DNA of 64,000 nucleotides, from the NCBI GenBank assembly GCA_022072165.1, contig JAJVIF010000001.1:523353-587352 (forward strand). The letters are read 5' to 3'. Numbering within the stretch: the first letter of the stretch is position 1; each line of letters opens with the position of its first letter. Below, in pieces: positions 5,196 through 32,024 of this stretch. This DNA is from a bacterium. GTDB taxonomy: Bacteria; JAJVIF01. Made by a program: the position numbers and the translations under genes. Below the pieces are notes generated by a model. It was not told the DNA's origin, searched no databases, and saw only the letters and a list, made by a program, of their open reading frames with translations.

Positions 5196-6245
5196 TTAAT
5201 GGGCGACTACGGCTTCCCAGACCGTGAGTCCGATGATGGCCAGCACCGCGATGATGCCGAACCAGACGCTGAGTTCTGAACTCGGTTGACGTCGACGAAT
5301 CGCACCATCGATCCATGGCCAGGCGAACATGACCACCACCACCAGCCCCATGCTCAGCACCGCGGCCGTGCCGGGAAAGAGCTTGAGCCAGCGGAAGGCG
5401 ACATAGAAGAACCACTCCGGCTTGATGATTTCAGGTGTTGACAGGGGATCAGCTGGGGGGCCCAGATGGGCCGGAACCGCCACTGCCAACGTCGTCAGAA
5501 TGACCAGCAGCGACAGTCCGATGATGAGTTCGGTGTAGAGGTGATCCGGAAAAAAGTTGAAGGAGCGCGGCTTGTCTTCCGGTTCATCCTCGAACCGGAA
5601 CTCGGTGACACCCTGCAGCCGGATCATCGTGATGTGCAGCGCGACCAGCAGAATGATGAGCACTGGCAGGACCGCCGCATGAATGATGTAGAACCGCGAC
5701 AGCGTATGCTCGTTGTAGACCTCGCCCGCCAGCAGGAGCTGCTTGAGGAGGCTGCCGACGACCGGCACGTTGTCTGCGATGTTCGCGCCAACCGTAGCGC
5801 CCCAGTAGCTGAGCTGCTCATACACCAGGCTGTAGCCGGTAAAGCCGGTCAGGAGTGTGCAGATCAGCAGGCCCATCCCGATGACCCAGTTCAGTTCCCG
5901 GGGAGCGCGATACGCGCCGGTAAAGAAGACCCGCATCTGATGGAGGATGACCGCCGCGATCATCAGGGTCGCGCCCCATTTGTGCAGACCCCGGATGTAC
6001 CAGCCGAAGCTGACATCCTCGGTAATCTGCCGGACCGATTCATAGGCCGTCAGCATGGAAGGCTGGTAGTACATCGCCAGTAGGATGCCGGTGATGATCT
6101 GGCCCATAAACAACAGCGCCGGAGTGCCTCCCAGGGCAAACCACCAGCGCTTCAGGTGATTCGGAACGGGTTCATTGGTGAACTCCCGCAGTTGTTCAGG
6201 GGAGATAGGGATCCGTTGCTGCAGCCAGCCTGGATTGGTTGCCAT
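5196..6245 (-). CDS. Cytochrome b of a bc-type complex (b6-like heme spacing)
   Basis: This 349-residue integral membrane protein carries the four heme-b His ligands: H88 and H102 in one helix, and H189 and H204 in another. The second pair has 14 residues between the histidines, as in cytochrome b6; bc1-type cytochrome b has 13. A 'KPEWFFYVAFRWLK' stretch gives the PEWF quinol-site motif, so the protein combines b6-like and subunit-IV-like parts in one chain, with a short C-terminus. An AAAGGAGG site precedes the ATG. It lies 14 bases after the Rieske gene and before the octaheme cytochrome, and presumably moves electrons from quinol to those partners. Confidence 0.93.
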   Translation of the reverse strand: MATNPGWLQQRIPISPEQLREFTNEPVPNHLKRWWFALGGTPALLFMGQIITGILLAMYYQPSMLTAYESVRQITEDVSFGWYIRGLHKWGATLMIAAVILHQMRVFFTGAYRAPRELNWVIGMGLLICTLLTGFTGYSLVYEQLSYWGATVGANIADNVPVVGSLLKQLLLAGEVYNEHTLSRFYIIHAAVLPVLIILLVALHITMIRLQGVTEFRFEDEPEDKPRSFNFFPDHLYTELIIGLSLLVILTTLAVAVPAHLGPPADPLSTPEIIKPEWFFYVAFRWLKLFPGTAAVLSMGLVVVVMFAWPWIDGAIRRRQPSSELSVWFGIIAVLAIIGLTVWEAVVAH

Positions 6246-6259
6246 CGCTCCGGCCTCCT

Positions 6260-6781
6260 TTAGGTCGCCGCCCCGGTACCTGTAGGGATGGGGACCTCAA
6301 TGAACAGCAGGCCGTCCTGAATTTTCAGGGGATACCGCGACAGCGACTGCTTCGCCTGTGCGGGCGGTCCTTCCGTAGCAATACCCGAGGGATCAAAGGC
6401 CCCGTTATGGCAGGGGCAGAAGAAGCGCTGCCTGACACTTTCCCAGTGGACCTGACACCCCAAATGTGGACAGGTGGAGGACAACGCGACAAAATCCTCG
6501 ACCGCCCCGGTCTCTCCCTGACGGGCAATCGCGATTTTCTCGCCGGTGGGACCGGTATAGGAAAGCGATCCACCCTTTGGGATATCCCGCGCAATCGCAA
6601 CATACAGCCACGCGGTGGGCCGTCCTCCAGCGGGGTACAGGAATTGCGAGGCGATCCACCCCAGACCACCAGCGGTCCCGGCCAGTCCGAGGGCGACTCC
6701 CATGCCAGCCATCCCGCCGAGGACGGTCCGTCGCTCGATCGGCTCATCTGGTCCTGGCGCTGCAACATCGTGTGGAGTCAT
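6260..6781 (-). CDS. Rieske iron-sulfur protein of a bc-type complex
   Basis: The 173-residue protein holds both Rieske cluster motifs, 'CPHLGC' and 'CPCHNG', each giving one Cys and one His ligand to the [2Fe-2S] centre, with the extra Cys residues for the disulfide. The N-terminus has a twin-arginine-like 'ERRTVLGGMAG' followed by a hydrophobic segment, as usual for Tat-exported Rieske proteins. I chose the ATG at 6781 because GAGGTGA lies 8 bases before it. An in-frame GTG at 6886 would add 35 uncharacteristic residues. First gene of the Rieske-cytochrome b-octaheme operon, downstream of a CRP/FNR-like palindrome. Confidence 0.94.
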   Translation of the reverse strand: MTPHDVAAPGPDEPIERRTVLGGMAGMGVALGLAGTAGGLGWIASQFLYPAGGRPTAWLYVAIARDIPKGGSLSYTGPTGEKIAIARQGETGAVEDFVALSSTCPHLGCQVHWESVRQRFFCPCHNGAFDPSGIATEGPPAQAKQSLSRYPLKIQDGLLFIEVPIPTGTGAAT

Positions 6782-6829
6782 GGTGTACTCACCTCGGTCA
6801 GGTGGGGCTTTGTGGCCTGTACCTGGGCA

Positions 6830-6871
6830 ATAGTGGATGGGAATGTCTGAAACTTTGGTGACGTGGGTCAC
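6830..6871 (-). promoter_or_regulatory. CRP/FNR-like operator and -10 box before the Rieske operon
   Basis: A perfect GTGA-N6-TCAC dyad occupies 6858-6871. On the minus strand, CACTAT at 6835-6830 lies where a -10 box would be if the dyad were centred at about -41.5, the usual position for a class II CRP/FNR-family activator. No regulator gene of that family is in the window. Confidence 0.45.
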
Positions 6872-6980
6872 GTATTTTTTGGGCACCGAATCATTAGTGT
6901 GACCAAAATCTAAACGGCCAGGAGTTCCCCGTGCGTTTGTCCCGGTGTGCCATCGAGTCCCGCCTTGTCAGGACTCTGGG

Positions 6981-6986
6981 TAGAAT
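6981..6986 (+). promoter_or_regulatory. -10 box TAGAAT
   Basis: TAGAAT preceded by GGG, 50 bases before the coiled-coil gene at 7037, which has its own ribosome-binding site. Same form as other -10 boxes in the window. Confidence 0.45.
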
Positions 6987-7036
6987 GCCGTGGTACCCGA
7001 CACCTCCCGTGTCGGCGACATTAGCGTGAGGATCCC

Positions 7037-7357
7037 ATGTCCACCCAGCCACTCCCACCCCCTGAAGAACGGCTCACGCAGCAGGAACGGGCCAATTTCC
7101 TGGAGGAGTTCATCCGCCGGGTGACCGAGGAAATGGACGCCCTCATGGAGGGGCGCAATTTTGATGCGGAGATCAAATCGCTGAAGTTCCGGATCGGACT
7201 CCTGGAACGAGGGGAGTCAGCCGATTTTAGGGAACGGGTCCGATCTCTGCGCGAGGAATTGGCTCATGTCGAGGAGGAATACGCCCTTCTTCGCCCCAAG
7301 CTGGAGCGTCTCGAGCAGGAGCGTCGCTTTTACCGGAGTCAAACGTCCGGGTTCTAG
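7037..7357 (+). CDS. Small coiled-coil protein of unknown function
   Basis: A 106-residue, highly charged protein, almost entirely predicted helix. Long runs with heptad-like leucines ('SLKFRIGLLERGE', 'RVRSLREELAHVEEEYALL', 'LERLEQERRF') suggest a coiled coil. No signal peptide or membrane segment is present. The ATG is preceded by GAGG. It lies 21 bases before coaX and is probably co-transcribed with it. I do not recognise a family. A structural or scaffold role is only a guess. Confidence 0.75.
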   Translation: MSTQPLPPPEERLTQQERANFLEEFIRRVTEEMDALMEGRNFDAEIKSLKFRIGLLERGESADFRERVRSLREELAHVEEEYALLRPKLERLEQERRFYRSQTSGF

Positions 7358-27279: not shown

Positions 27280-27300
27280 ACAGGGCTCCTTCGCGGGCGA

Positions 27301-27306
27301 TACACT
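27301..27306 (+). promoter_or_regulatory. -10 box for leaderless fdhD
   Basis: TACACT ends 6 bases before the fdhD ATG. No Shine-Dalgarno sequence is present. Confidence 0.5.
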
Positions 27307-27312
27307 GCCAGT

Positions 27313-28119
27313 ATGGCGGATCCTCTCACGACACTACCCATCTGGCGGATCGATGGCGAAGATACGCGGTGTGTAACGGACCAGGTGGTGACCGAAGAAC
27401 CGCTCTCGATCCTCATTAACGGGACTCCCTGGCAGGTGATGCTCCGGACACCCGGGGCGGATATCGCCCTGATCACCGGACTCCTCTTTGGAGAGGGGCT
27501 GATCTCTTCGGCCGCCGACCTGATACGCATCGAGAGTGCCGAGACCGCTCAGGAGGATCTGGGGAACACGCTCAATGTGGTCCTGGCACATCACCACTCC
27601 CCTGCACCCGCCCGGACTGGGGTGATGAACTCCGCCTGCGGGCTCTGCGGCAGCACCCTCCTGCGGGAGATCTGCTGGCCGAAGGTGAGCGATGCGATGC
27701 TGGTAGACCAGGAATTGCTGCGGACCCTGCCAGATCAACTCCGCGGCCATCAGGAGCTGTTTCAGGCGACCGGTGGGATTCATGCCGCGGGGTTGTTCAC
27801 CGCTCAGGGAGAGCTGCTGGCGGTCGCAGAAGATGTGGGACGTCACAATACGGTCGACAAAGTCATCGGGCTGTTACTCCAGAGTGGGCTCACCAGTCTC
27901 CCCGACACGATTCTGCAAATTTCGGGGCGCGGCGGGTACGAAATCCTGCTGAAGGCCTGGCGCGCGGGGATTCCGATAGTGGCGGCAGTCGGCGCGCCCT
28001 CGTCGCTTGCTGTGCAAGTCGCGGAGCAAGGCGGGATCACGCTGGTGGGCTTCATGCGGGGGAGTAAGGCGAATGTGTACACGCATCCTGAACGTACAGG
28101 GCTCGGAGTATCATCCTGA
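27313..28119 (+). CDS. fdhD: Formate dehydrogenase accessory sulfurtransferase FdhD
   Basis: FdhD passes sulfur from a cysteine desulfurase to the molybdenum cofactor of formate dehydrogenase. The 268 residues contain the persulfide loop 'NSACGLCGS', 'ATGGIHAAGLF', 'EDVGRHNTVDKVIG' and 'ISGRGGYEILLKAWRAGIP', all diagnostic. The start at 27313 is the first in-frame ATG after the TACACT box. No formate dehydrogenase gene is in the window, so its client enzyme must lie elsewhere. lipB begins 2 bases after its stop. Confidence 0.94.
   Translation: MADPLTTLPIWRIDGEDTRCVTDQVVTEEPLSILINGTPWQVMLRTPGADIALITGLLFGEGLISSAADLIRIESAETAQEDLGNTLNVVLAHHHSPAPARTGVMNSACGLCGSTLLREICWPKVSDAMLVDQELLRTLPDQLRGHQELFQATGGIHAAGLFTAQGELLAVAEDVGRHNTVDKVIGLLLQSGLTSLPDTILQISGRGGYEILLKAWRAGIPIVAAVGAPSSLAVQVAEQGGITLVGFMRGSKANVYTHPERTGLGVSS
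28109..28114 (+). promoter_or_regulatory. Possible -10 box for leaderless lipB
   Basis: TATCAT ends 7 bases before the lipB ATG and overlaps the end of fdhD. lipB could also be read from the fdhD transcript. Confidence 0.35.
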
Positions 28120-28121
28120 CA

Positions 28122-28829
28122 ATGCCTGTCGCGCTCGATCTGGGGCTGCTCCCCTACTCCCGGTACCAGCAATTGCTCCCGCTGCTCACCGAAGCGCGTC
28201 GGCAGGACCTGATGCCCGATCTGCTGCTGTTTGCAGTCCATCCGCCAGTGATCACGCTGGGGCGTCAGTCACAACCCGACGAGATTCGGTGGAATGCTGA
28301 ACAGCTTGCAGCGGCGGAGTTACCGCTGGTGGAGATTGGGCGTGGCGGGCACACGACTTATCATGGACCTGATCAACAGATGCTCTATCCCATCATCCGC
28401 CTGGAGCTCGGGCGACTGCATCCCTTTCTCGCAGCTATCCATGAAGCCCTCGAGCTGACAGCCAGCGCCATGGGAGTCACTGCCTGGCGTCGGGAAGGGT
28501 TTCCCGGCCTCTGGACCGCCCGTGGCAAGCTGGCGAGCATCGGTCTCGCGGTGCAGGGAGGCGTCACGACTCACGGCATCGCGCTGAATTGCGAGCCCGC
28601 GACCTCGGGAGGATTCGAGGCGATCGTGCCTTGTGGTATCCCGGAGATCGTGATGACTGATCTGCAAACCGAGACGGGGCAGAGACTATCGCGCTTTGCG
28701 GTTCGGAGTGCGCTGGCCACGACGTGGGAACTGGCACATGGCAGCCGCGTGGAAGCCGGAGCGCTTGATCTGCTGCCACTTGACGCTCAGGAGTTACTGG
28801 CAGAGGAGGCTGCGGGGCGACATGCCTGA
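28122..28829 (+). CDS. lipB: Octanoyltransferase LipB
   Basis: Moves octanoate from acyl carrier protein to lipoyl domains. The 235 residues have 'RGGHTTYHGPDQQMLYPI' (the family usually has GPGQ; Asp here is a small oddity), the catalytic Lys in 'GKLASIGLAVQ', 'VTTHGIALN' and the catalytic Cys in 'IVPCGIPE'. The last 8 bases overlap the start of lipA, which then inserts sulfur into the octanoyl group. A stand-alone lipoyl-domain gene follows, forming a lipoylation cluster. Confidence 0.94.
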   Translation: MPVALDLGLLPYSRYQQLLPLLTEARRQDLMPDLLLFAVHPPVITLGRQSQPDEIRWNAEQLAAAELPLVEIGRGGHTTYHGPDQQMLYPIIRLELGRLHPFLAAIHEALELTASAMGVTAWRREGFPGLWTARGKLASIGLAVQGGVTTHGIALNCEPATSGGFEAIVPCGIPEIVMTDLQTETGQRLSRFAVRSALATTWELAHGSRVEAGALDLLPLDAQELLAEEAAGRHA

Positions 28830-29724
28830 AAACTGGACCAAAGTGCGGCACCCGCTCCCGCCGTGGATCAAGAAAACAGCCGGTGACTATGCGGCAACAC
28901 AGGCGATCCGGGAAGAGGTCCGGGACCAGGGCATCTGGACTGTCTGTACCGAAGCAAACTGCCCGAACGTGTCAGAGTGTTGGGCATCGAAGCACTGCAC
29001 CTTCCTGATTCTGGGGAACGAGTGCACACGCTGGTGCGGTTACTGTTCGGTGCCCAAGGCGCTGCGCCCACAGATGCAGGACTTTGCCCGTGAGCAGGCG
29101 GAGGTAGTCCGCTCGATCCGTCAGCTGGATGCCCGCTATGTCGTGCTGACCTCCCCCAATCGGGATGACCTGCCGCAGGGGGGGGCGCTGGCGTGGGCGG
29201 ACCAGATTCAGGCGATCCATGTCGCGGTCCCGGATGTGCTGGTGGAAGTCCTCATCCCGGATTTCGATTTTGAAACAGCCGCCTGGGACTCGGTGATCCG
29301 CAGCGGAATTGCGGTGCTGGGGCACAATGTGGAAGCGGTCCCGGAACTCTTTCCCACGGTCCGCCCGCATGGAGATTTCTATCGCGCCCTGGGAGCACTT
29401 GCAGATGCGCGGAGTCGCTGGCCGGCACAAATCACGAAAACCGCCCTGATTTGCGGGCTCGGCGAGACCGAAGCACAGCTTGAACACGCCATTGAGGAGA
29501 TCGCGGCAGCGGGCATCGATATTCTGGTACTGGGGCAATACCTTCGTCCGACAGCGAAGCAGGTGCCAGTAAGTCGGTTTGTGACCCCTGGGGAGTTCAC
29601 AGCCCTGGAACATTTTGCGCGGTCAGCAGGGATTTCTACTGTAGTGGCCGGTCCGTTCGTGCGCTCGAGTTACAAGGCGCGGGAAGCCTGGGACGCAGCC
29701 TGCCGTCACCGTGGGCTTTCGTAG
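28822..29724 (+). CDS. lipA: Lipoyl synthase LipA
   Basis: A radical-SAM enzyme that inserts two sulfurs into octanoyl groups. The 300 residues carry both clusters: the auxiliary 'CTEANCPNVSEC' (CX4CX5C) and the radical-SAM 'CTRWCGYC' (CX3CX2C), and the C-terminal 'VRSSYKA' with the Ser that ligates the auxiliary cluster. GAGGAGG inside the end of lipB lies 12-13 bases before the ATG, and the 8-base overlap suggests coupled translation. Confidence 0.96.
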   Translation: MPENWTKVRHPLPPWIKKTAGDYAATQAIREEVRDQGIWTVCTEANCPNVSECWASKHCTFLILGNECTRWCGYCSVPKALRPQMQDFAREQAEVVRSIRQLDARYVVLTSPNRDDLPQGGALAWADQIQAIHVAVPDVLVEVLIPDFDFETAAWDSVIRSGIAVLGHNVEAVPELFPTVRPHGDFYRALGALADARSRWPAQITKTALICGLGETEAQLEHAIEEIAAAGIDILVLGQYLRPTAKQVPVSRFVTPGEFTALEHFARSAGISTVVAGPFVRSSYKAREAWDAACRHRGLS

Positions 29725-29817
29725 AGTGCGAAAGGTGCCTGGTGTGCATCGCAAGGCAATGGGGTGCGAAAAGGGGTCAATAGCGAACGCTGGTTTGCGG
29801 GGCGTCAGGGGCTGTGG

Positions 29818-29823
29818 TATACC
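29818..29823 (+). promoter_or_regulatory. -10 box TATACC
   Basis: GGTATACCCT lies 54 bases before the GTG of the lipoyl-domain gene. Confidence 0.4.
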
Positions 29824-29877
29824 CTTGCCGCGTCGCAACCCGCCTCAGGCGCCGTTTCCGGCGGAAAGGGGTCAGCA

Positions 29878-30315
29878 GTGACGCGGCAAGTGAATTACGA
29901 CATCATCATCCCTCCCCTGGGCGATAGAGCCCTCGACTGCCAGCTGAGTGAATGGCTGGTGGCCGTCGGTGACTACGTGAAAGAAGGAGCGCCCCTCTTG
30001 ATCCTGGAAAGCGAAAAGTCTGCCATCGAGATCCCCGCCCCAGCAGATGGCACCCTCGCGGAGGTTTATGTCTTCGAGGGCGAGGAGGTCATCGAGTCTG
30101 AACGGATCGGCGTGATTCGCGCCGATGTCTACGAGGACGAGGACGGGATCGACGGCTTCGACGACGAAGATGATGAGTACGCGGATGACCTCGACGAGGA
30201 CGACGAGGACTATGACCTCGACGACGACGATGAGGACGATGACGATGACGACGACGACTTCGGAGATGACGACGACGATGACGACGACCTCGATGACGAG
30301 GATGACGAGATCTAG
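29878..30315 (+). CDS. Stand-alone lipoyl/biotinyl domain with hyper-acidic tail
   Basis: A 145-residue protein. Residues 7-82 are a lipoyl-type hammerhead domain: 'PPLGD' at the start, Lys47 in 'ESEKSAIEIPAPADG' as the modification site, and 'VYVFEGEEV'. From about residue 84 to the end nearly every residue is Asp or Glu (runs of eight Asp), about 60 residues in all. Lipoyl domains normally belong to E2 subunits or GcvH; a free one with such a tail is unusual. lipB and lipA lie directly upstream, so lipoylation is more likely than biotinylation. GTG start with AAAGGGG 6 bases before it. A strong terminator follows. Confidence 0.8.
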   Translation: MTRQVNYDIIIPPLGDRALDCQLSEWLVAVGDYVKEGAPLLILESEKSAIEIPAPADGTLAEVYVFEGEEVIESERIGVIRADVYEDEDGIDGFDDEDDEYADDLDEDDEDYDLDDDDEDDDDDDDDFGDDDDDDDDLDDEDDEI

Positions 30316-30352: not shown

Positions 30353-30386
30353 CACCGCCCGGTTTCGACCGGGCGGTGCCTTTTCT
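30353..30386 (+). terminator. Strong terminator after the lipoyl-domain gene
   Basis: A perfect 11-bp stem CACCGCCCGGT/ACCGGGCGGTG with a TTCG tetraloop, followed by CCTTTTCT. Confidence 0.9.
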
Positions 30387-30516: not shown

Positions 30517-31059
30517 TTATGCGGACAGGCCTCCGAGCACCACCCGCTCCAGGATCTCGCGTTGCGCTGATTCGGGCAGATGCCCCGCCAGGAGGGGGTA
30601 GAGGAAGGTCCGCTCCCGGGCATCGTGATGCTGCAGGAGGTCCTTAAACGACGCCTCCCGGTCGAGGAGGGCGATGATCTCCCGCGCACTTACCTGCGAC
30701 GGCGCTGGCGGTGCGAGGACGTGGCCGAATTGCAGGGGGGTCCCGGCCGGTTCGATGGCCATCAGCCGTGCATGGAGCTCATCCAGCGATTTGAGGAGCT
30801 TCTCATGTTCGCTTTGGAAAAAGATCAGTTTCGCTCCTTCCGGGGGATCGATCTGCTCTGCATAGACCGGGAGAATCCAGGCTTCCTCATCCGCGATGTG
30901 TTGCCGCAACTGGGAGTCGAATTGCTGCAACCAGTGCGCCGCCGCGGGAAGATTGCGGTCCAGCAGGGCGGTTTGATGGGCCAGCAGGAGCTCCTCGAGC
31001 AGGGTGTGGACATCGAGCAGCTGCAGCAGGGAGGGGTTGGTTCCGTTCATAGAATCCAT
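30517..31059 (-). CDS. Hemerythrin-like protein
   Basis: A 180-residue cytoplasmic four-helix protein with the non-heme di-iron ligand pattern of hemerythrin domains: a His in 'VHTLLEELLLAHQ', 'RQHIADEE' (HxxxE), a His in 'FQSEHEKLLKSLDE' and 'LLQHHDARERTFLYPLL' (HxxxE). Such proteins bind oxygen or nitric oxide, or sense redox and iron state. The ATG at 31059 has AAGAGG just before it. Divergent from the DUF4438 gene. Confidence 0.87.
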   Translation of the reverse strand: MDSMNGTNPSLLQLLDVHTLLEELLLAHQTALLDRNLPAAAHWLQQFDSQLRQHIADEEAWILPVYAEQIDPPEGAKLIFFQSEHEKLLKSLDELHARLMAIEPAGTPLQFGHVLAPPAPSQVSAREIIALLDREASFKDLLQHHDARERTFLYPLLAGHLPESAQREILERVVLGGLSA

Positions 31060-31108
31060 GATGCCTCTTCTCACCGGAGGAGGGTGTGCGGTGTCGCACA
31101 GCCCAGCG

Positions 31109-31114
31109 TACAAT
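31109..31114 (+). promoter_or_regulatory. -10 box for leaderless DUF4438 gene
   Basis: CGTACAATCG: TACAAT ends 7 bases before the ATG. No Shine-Dalgarno sequence. Confidence 0.5.
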
Positions 31115-31121
31115 CGCCGCC

Positions 31122-32024
31122 ATGGCCTCTACCCTGCGCACAAACGCCTCCAGCCTGGTCTCGATTTCGGTCGAAGGGCACGTTTCCTACCCCACGTTCA
31201 GTTCGCCCTTTGGGGTCGGAGCTGATGGCATTGCCCGGGCATTGCCGGGTTGTTCAGGCATCTGCTTTAACGTGAAAGTCGGGGACACCTGCTTTGGCTG
31301 GGAAGGCGACCACGTCGAACCGTGTGTCTCGGCGGTGGCCGACCAGGACAACCGCATGAGCGGCAAAAACCGGGGATTCCATGCATATCCCTGCGTGGGG
31401 AATGAAGTCCGGGTCATGACCGGCGATGCCAAAGGGGCATTGGGATTGGTGACTGGTCAGCATGGGGGAATCGAGCATGTGATCATGGACTTTCCGGATG
31501 ACGTTCTGGAAGTGCTCAGTCATGGAGACAAGCTGCGGATCAAATGTCTGGGCATGGGGCTCAAACTGCTGGACTACCCCCAGATCATGTGTCACAACAC
31601 GTCGCCGGCCCTGCTGGAGCGGATGGCGATTACGGAGGATGAGGACGAGGGGATTACGGTCGGAGTAGTCGCCAACATTCCGGGCTTCCTGATGGGAAGC
31701 GGCATTGGCTCCGTGTCACCTATGACCGGTGACTACGACATCATGACCACGGACCCCACCCTCACTTCGCAGTATCGCCTGGACCAGTTGAGGCTCGGGG
31801 ACATCGTGGCGATCAGCAACCATGACAATTCCTATGGGCGTCACTACTACGAAGGGGCGACCACCATCGGGATCATCACCCACTCCAACTCCTATATGGC
31901 GGGTCATGGTCCGGGGGTCGTAGCGCTCCTGACAAGCAAGCTGCCGATCATCCGGACTGCCTATGATCCCAATGCGAATGTGGCAGACTTTTTCGGAGTG
32001 GGACGACGTCGGAAGGTCGTCTAA
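31122..32024 (+). CDS. DUF4438 family protein
   Basis: A 300-residue protein that I recognise as the DUF4438 family, known from Thermotoga-type genomes, whose function is not established. Landmarks are 'GDTCFGWEGDHVEPCVS', 'CVGNEVRVMTGDAKG', 'GHGPGVVALLTSK' near the C-terminus and 'DFFGVGRRR' at the end. No signal peptide. The start at 31122 is the first ATG after TACAAT. It is divergent from hemerythrin, 62 bases apart, so they share control DNA. Confidence 0.8.
   Translation: MASTLRTNASSLVSISVEGHVSYPTFSSPFGVGADGIARALPGCSGICFNVKVGDTCFGWEGDHVEPCVSAVADQDNRMSGKNRGFHAYPCVGNEVRVMTGDAKGALGLVTGQHGGIEHVIMDFPDDVLEVLSHGDKLRIKCLGMGLKLLDYPQIMCHNTSPALLERMAITEDEDEGITVGVVANIPGFLMGSGIGSVSPMTGDYDIMTTDPTLTSQYRLDQLRLGDIVAISNHDNSYGRHYYEGATTIGIITHSNSYMAGHGPGVVALLTSKLPIIRTAYDPNANVADFFGVGRRRKVV

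Follow-up and report, generated by a model that had tools for sequence, protein, structure and literature searches.

A probable free-standing lipoyl carrier with an acidic tail, encoded after lipB and lipA

We describe a 145-residue protein, composed of a lipoyl domain and an acidic tail and encoded directly after lipB and lipA, that is probably a dedicated free-standing lipoyl carrier, a client of LipB and LipA acting outside the 2-oxoacid dehydrogenases. The three genes occupy positions 28122-30315 of the window, as we call the whole 64-kb stretch of DNA that was analysed; its genome of origin (G000) has 3.26 Mb and is 99% complete. Our moderate confidence applies to a free client of the two enzymes and does not extend to a role as a relay of lipoyl groups.

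The octanoyltransferase gene lipB (28122..28829; this and the other features of the locus are on the forward strand unless marked otherwise) matches TIGR00214 with 92.3 bits against a cut-off of 83.55, and its translation contains the motifs IVPCGI and GKLASIG. It overlaps by 8 bp the lipoyl synthase gene lipA (28822..29724; NF004019, E=7.8e-92, above cut-off), where the motifs CTEANCPNVSEC, CTRWCGYC and RSSY are present. Upstream, fdhD for a formate dehydrogenase accessory sulfurtransferase (27289..28119, start uncertain; Pfam FdhD-NarQ, E=8.2e-64, and NCBIfam fdhD_narQ above cut-off) ends 2 bp from the start of lipB. The carrier gene (29878..30315, GTG start) is separated from lipA by 153 bp (29725..29877), a gap in which a sequence scan revealed no promoter-like or terminator-like match. 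It is the last gene of the series, ahead of a terminator-like hairpin (30353..30378) whose 11-pair stem leads into a T-rich run; this consensus match is weak evidence, as three such matches were found in the region against 2.2 expected, a number near chance. Further downstream (30517-32024) are a hemerythrin-like gene on the reverse strand and a gene for a DUF4438 protein on the forward strand. The profile matches thus confirm both enzyme families in the order that had been read from the sequence alone, with the lipoyl protein coming after LipB and LipA.

The carrier's lipoyl domain (residues 1-83, 29878..30126) is matched by Pfam Biotin_lipoyl at residues 21-79 (E=1.8e-13), and sequence comparison places it with the E2-type lipoyl domains. 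AlphaFold2 gave a poor model from the single sequence; with an alignment the domain was predicted as all beta with block mean pLDDT of 79-98, and Foldseek matched this model to lipoyl and biotinyl domains. The predicted lipoylation site is Lys47 (codon 30016..30018), which sits in LESEKSAIEIP. The hammerhead fold and the position of this lysine in a turn of the DKA/EKA kind (ESEKSA), rather than in a biotin MKM motif, identify the domain as of lipoyl type.

The tail (residues 84-145, 30127..30312) contains 38 Asp and 9 Glu, 47 acidic residues out of 62, with neither Lys nor Arg. It is predicted to be disordered, with no secondary structure in the AlphaFold2 model (pLDDT about 57-65); across all frames of the 64-kb window, no other 40-residue stretch reaches 60% Asp/Glu. 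An origin as a microsatellite artefact or a frame error is not obvious, because the Asp codons are mixed (28 GAC and 10 GAT) and the acidic tail encoded in a genome from another family, G002, has diverged and is 60 residues long. The Pfam match and the composition count bear out the sequence-only reading of a 145-residue lipoyl hammerhead with Lys47 and an Asp/Glu tail. A simple electrostatic dock for LipA and LipB is unsupported, since both enzymes are themselves net acidic (-5 and -9). As a guess, the disordered tail may keep the carrier soluble and free, or may steer its contacts.

Orthologues were found in each of the three other genomes that, together with G000, make up our sample of the class (G001, G002 and G003), with 42-54% identity over the domain. 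Lys47 is invariant in the four members, which also conserve its flanking positions and a segment YxxEGEExIxxERxGxI, and all four have acidic C-termini (62, 60, 22 and 16 residues past the domain). In G002 the lipoyl gene directly follows lipA, and a tRNA-Ser(TGA) gene lies downstream of the carrier in G001, G002 and G003; G002 thus joins the two arrangements, lipA-lipoyl and lipoyl-tRNA-Ser, which supports orthology within the class. In G001 and G003 the carrier gene is not beside lipA and is preceded by a gene without an NCBIfam match, which we take to be DUF1385/YqhQ-like. The four genomes all have lipA, and GcvH is present in G000, G001 and G002. Besides LipB, a second LplA-like protein is encoded in G000, G001 and G003; its best match is lipoate ligase, below the cut-off, and these proteins are closer to LplA than to LipL.

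The carrier is not a member of the GcvH family. It matches Biotin_lipoyl families only, with no GCV_H match at E<=0.001, and its immediate neighbours (fdhD, lipB, lipA, the hemerythrin-like gene and the DUF4438 gene) include neither gcvT nor gcvP. The single GCV_H match in the whole of G000 is at another locus, on contig 4, where gcvH is found with gcvPA/PB-like genes. This agrees with the earlier view of a stand-alone lipoyl domain unlike GcvH. At that locus, a gene for a DUF4172-Fic protein (L132 7424-8548) is located between gcvH and the gcvPA-like gene.

An E2 origin had to be considered, as the domain is of E2 type and the gene could be a functionless fragment of a split or decaying E2 gene, the finding that the sequence-only reading had named as its refutation. 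We regard this as highly improbable. The 145 residues hold a lipoyl domain and no acyltransferase domain (PF00198), no E2 adjoins the carrier gene, and no E2 remnant was seen downstream of it. The sole PF00198 match in G000 (C1:934472) belongs to an intact E2 that includes a lipoyl domain; its operon (E1-alpha/E1-beta/E2/E3) lies about 380 kb from the carrier gene on the same contig, and the three relatives gave no E2 match. Conservation also speaks against decay: the lysine and the acidic tail are kept across the class at 42-54% identity, and the synteny with tRNA-Ser is conserved. On the same contig, at about 940.9-943.7 kb and outside the window, a gene (L128 12860-15685) encodes an 822-aa Cas12g (PADLOC Cas12g, E=7.4e-219); three copies of a 37-nt repeat with 66-nt spacing beside it indicate a small type V-G CRISPR locus.

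Since the only E2 of G000 carries a lipoyl domain, the suggested search for an E2 in need of one yielded no partner for the carrier, and such a partnership is rejected. The protein could still supply an additional, unattached lipoyl domain to the pyruvate dehydrogenase (PDH) complex or to an orphan E1-alpha on contig 2. G000 does have a PDH operon and an unpaired E1-alpha paralogue, and stand-alone lipoyl genes next to E1 genes occur in G034, G039 and G045. We nevertheless consider this unlikely, given that the E2 of G000 already has its own domain, that the carrier gene is unlinked to E1 in every class member, and that the relatives keep the protein with no E2 and no convincing E1. In profile searches of G001-G003 (MAGs 82-92% complete), PF00198 had no match and E1_dh had weak matches only, consistent with other thiamine-diphosphate enzymes; at this completeness each absence is weak on its own, and the three together are suggestive. 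The second E1-alpha paralogue (L215 about 6200-7238, about 468.2-469.2 kb on contig 2) has no E1-beta or E2 seen beside it and sits upstream of an ATP-synthase-epsilon-like gene.

Homologues and their neighbours, which the sequence-only reading had proposed to search for, were found as stand-alone genes in the class, and the lip-linked arrangement recurs in several other families. We searched 192 genomes with a profile made of seven stand-alone domains; its 13 best matches were all short stand-alone frames, scoring above every E2, and a separate scan of genome contigs returned mostly ordinary E2s. Stand-alone lipoyl genes lie within 300 bp of lipA in 11 cases, and another three, in lip clusters, are no more than 2.5 kb away. 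Six of the 17 non-seed stand-alone matches fall within 300 bp of lipA, where chance would give 0.014; two of these six (G165 and G174) come from families that also contain seeds and do not count as independent. Four further matches are located in a lipB/lipA cluster. The gene order is lipB-lipA-carrier in G000, G018, G165, G029 and G078, lipA-carrier in G002, G027, G174, G131, G142 and G091, and lipB-carrier in G176. The cluster in G070 reads in full fhs-lipoyl-lpd-lipB-lipA-fchA-folD, and that in G091 reads lpd-lipA-lipoyl. Lys47 is retained in 13 of the 14 members of the wider set; in the G091 copy (L208 181-420), next to lpd and lipA, the lipoyl lysine is lost (EVTGDDSESYKV). Acidic tails recur in G174 (11/11 residues) and G176 (9/14).

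Stand-alone lipoyl genes located beside E1 genes (G034, G039, G045 and G164) are of a different kind from the lipA-linked ones. On a tree built from 60 domains, three changes account for the lipA-linked label, versus 14.3 when shuffled; members of the class group together, separately from a larger set of linked carriers. The tree, with 81 columns, is weakly resolved, and the data neither establish nor reject that all linked carriers go back to one origin (single clade, p-AU 0.38). Two more stand-alone lipoyl genes (L211 4751-4981 and L151 6562-6867) are directly upstream of serS, and in G085 a threonine-aldolase-like gene follows.

Judging from family knowledge and gene order, LipB would place octanoate on Lys47 and LipA would convert the octanoyl into a lipoyl group; the lipoylated carrier would then act outside any 2-oxoacid dehydrogenase, a view supported by the relatives that show no E1 or E2. 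The gene order thus supports the earlier suggestion that the protein is served by lipB and lipA, at the level of a probable client. In some other genomes lipA has ordinary E2 genes in its vicinity, so adjacency to lip genes is a sign of a client and not of a relay.

What the lipoylated carrier does is a more tentative matter. It may serve as a relay or scaffold, on which an octanoyl or lipoyl group would be built, with an LplA/LipL-like transferase then passing it on to GcvH or E2. GcvH is such a lipoyl relay in B. subtilis and humans (PMC7253636). No partners other than the lip genes recur throughout the carrier neighbourhoods, and this, with the second LplA-like proteins of G000, G001 and G003, is in favour of a relay; against it, these ligases are LplA-like more than LipL-like, the carriers of G001 and G003 are away from lipA, and no amidotransferase is known for the LipB pathway of E. 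coli (PMC7253636). A role as a free dihydrolipoyl redox carrier, with Lpd reducing or oxidizing the lipoyl group and electrons exchanged with a thiol enzyme or with one-carbon metabolism, is again possible rather than likely. It has proposed precedents in LarG with Lpd in Pelobacter (PMC3543383) and in LbpA (PMC6067878), and two clusters contain lpd, that of G091 and that of G070, where one-carbon genes are also present. Most clusters, that of the window included, have neither lpd nor a thiol-enzyme neighbour, and one of the two lpd-linked cases is the G091 copy without its lysine. Threonine/alanine-type genes near the carriers in G027, G029 and G131, with the one-carbon genes in G070, are suggestive of metabolic partners, though they are not common to the whole set. 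We lean slightly to the relay scaffold over the free redox carrier with Lpd.

Comparison with known lipoyl proteins sets the carrier apart from each of them. It shares sequence and fold with the N-terminal lipoyl domain of E2 (AceF, SucB) and has neither of the further E2 domains, for subunit binding and catalysis; in three relatives no E2 is seen. The biotin/lipoyl attachment protein BLAP (PDB 1z6h, presumably from B. subtilis) is likewise a small stand-alone domain, whereas the carrier matches E2 domains better and the 1z6h chain has only 72 residues with no such tail. GcvH/GCSH (H protein) is also a small free lipoyl protein and can be an assembly platform from which the lipoyl group is handed on (PMC7253636); the carrier differs in its E2-type domain, its acidic tail, its lack of a GCV_H match and the presence of a separate GcvH in the genome. 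LbpA of sHdr sulfur oxidation resembles the carrier in having one lipoyl domain and in being encoded alongside genes for its lipoylation, yet it is of the GcvH kind and its gene partners are hdr-like, lplA and LipS-type genes (PMC6067878), whereas the carrier is encoded with LipB and LipA. Membership of the LbpA family is rejected, with no GCV_H match and no hdr gene among the immediate neighbours. LarG of Pelobacter carbinolicus, a proposed free lipoyl carrier beside Lpd, is described as similar to the glycine-cleavage carrier and belongs to a different setting (PMC3543383).

Free lipoyl-type proteins besides GcvH are thus already described (LbpA, LarG and BLAP); in the open-access literature, an incomplete sample, no publication turned up that describes E2-type carriers with an acidic tail or with linkage to lipA across families. 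Lipoyl domains are usually assigned either to dehydrogenases or to GcvH. A still broader reading, to which we give rather little credence, is that a widespread and unrecognized family of E2-type carriers encoded with lipB and lipA could form a GcvH-independent platform for lipoic acid assembly and relay in diverse bacteria. A conserved lipB-lipA-linked carrier, kept where no such dehydrogenases show, would point to another step or use of lipoic acid, and the carrier is a small protein that can be tested directly. With similar gene pairs recurring in unrelated bacteria, some of them showing none of the large enzymes to which such domains usually belong, the protein may be an independent lipoyl carrier that has drawn little notice.
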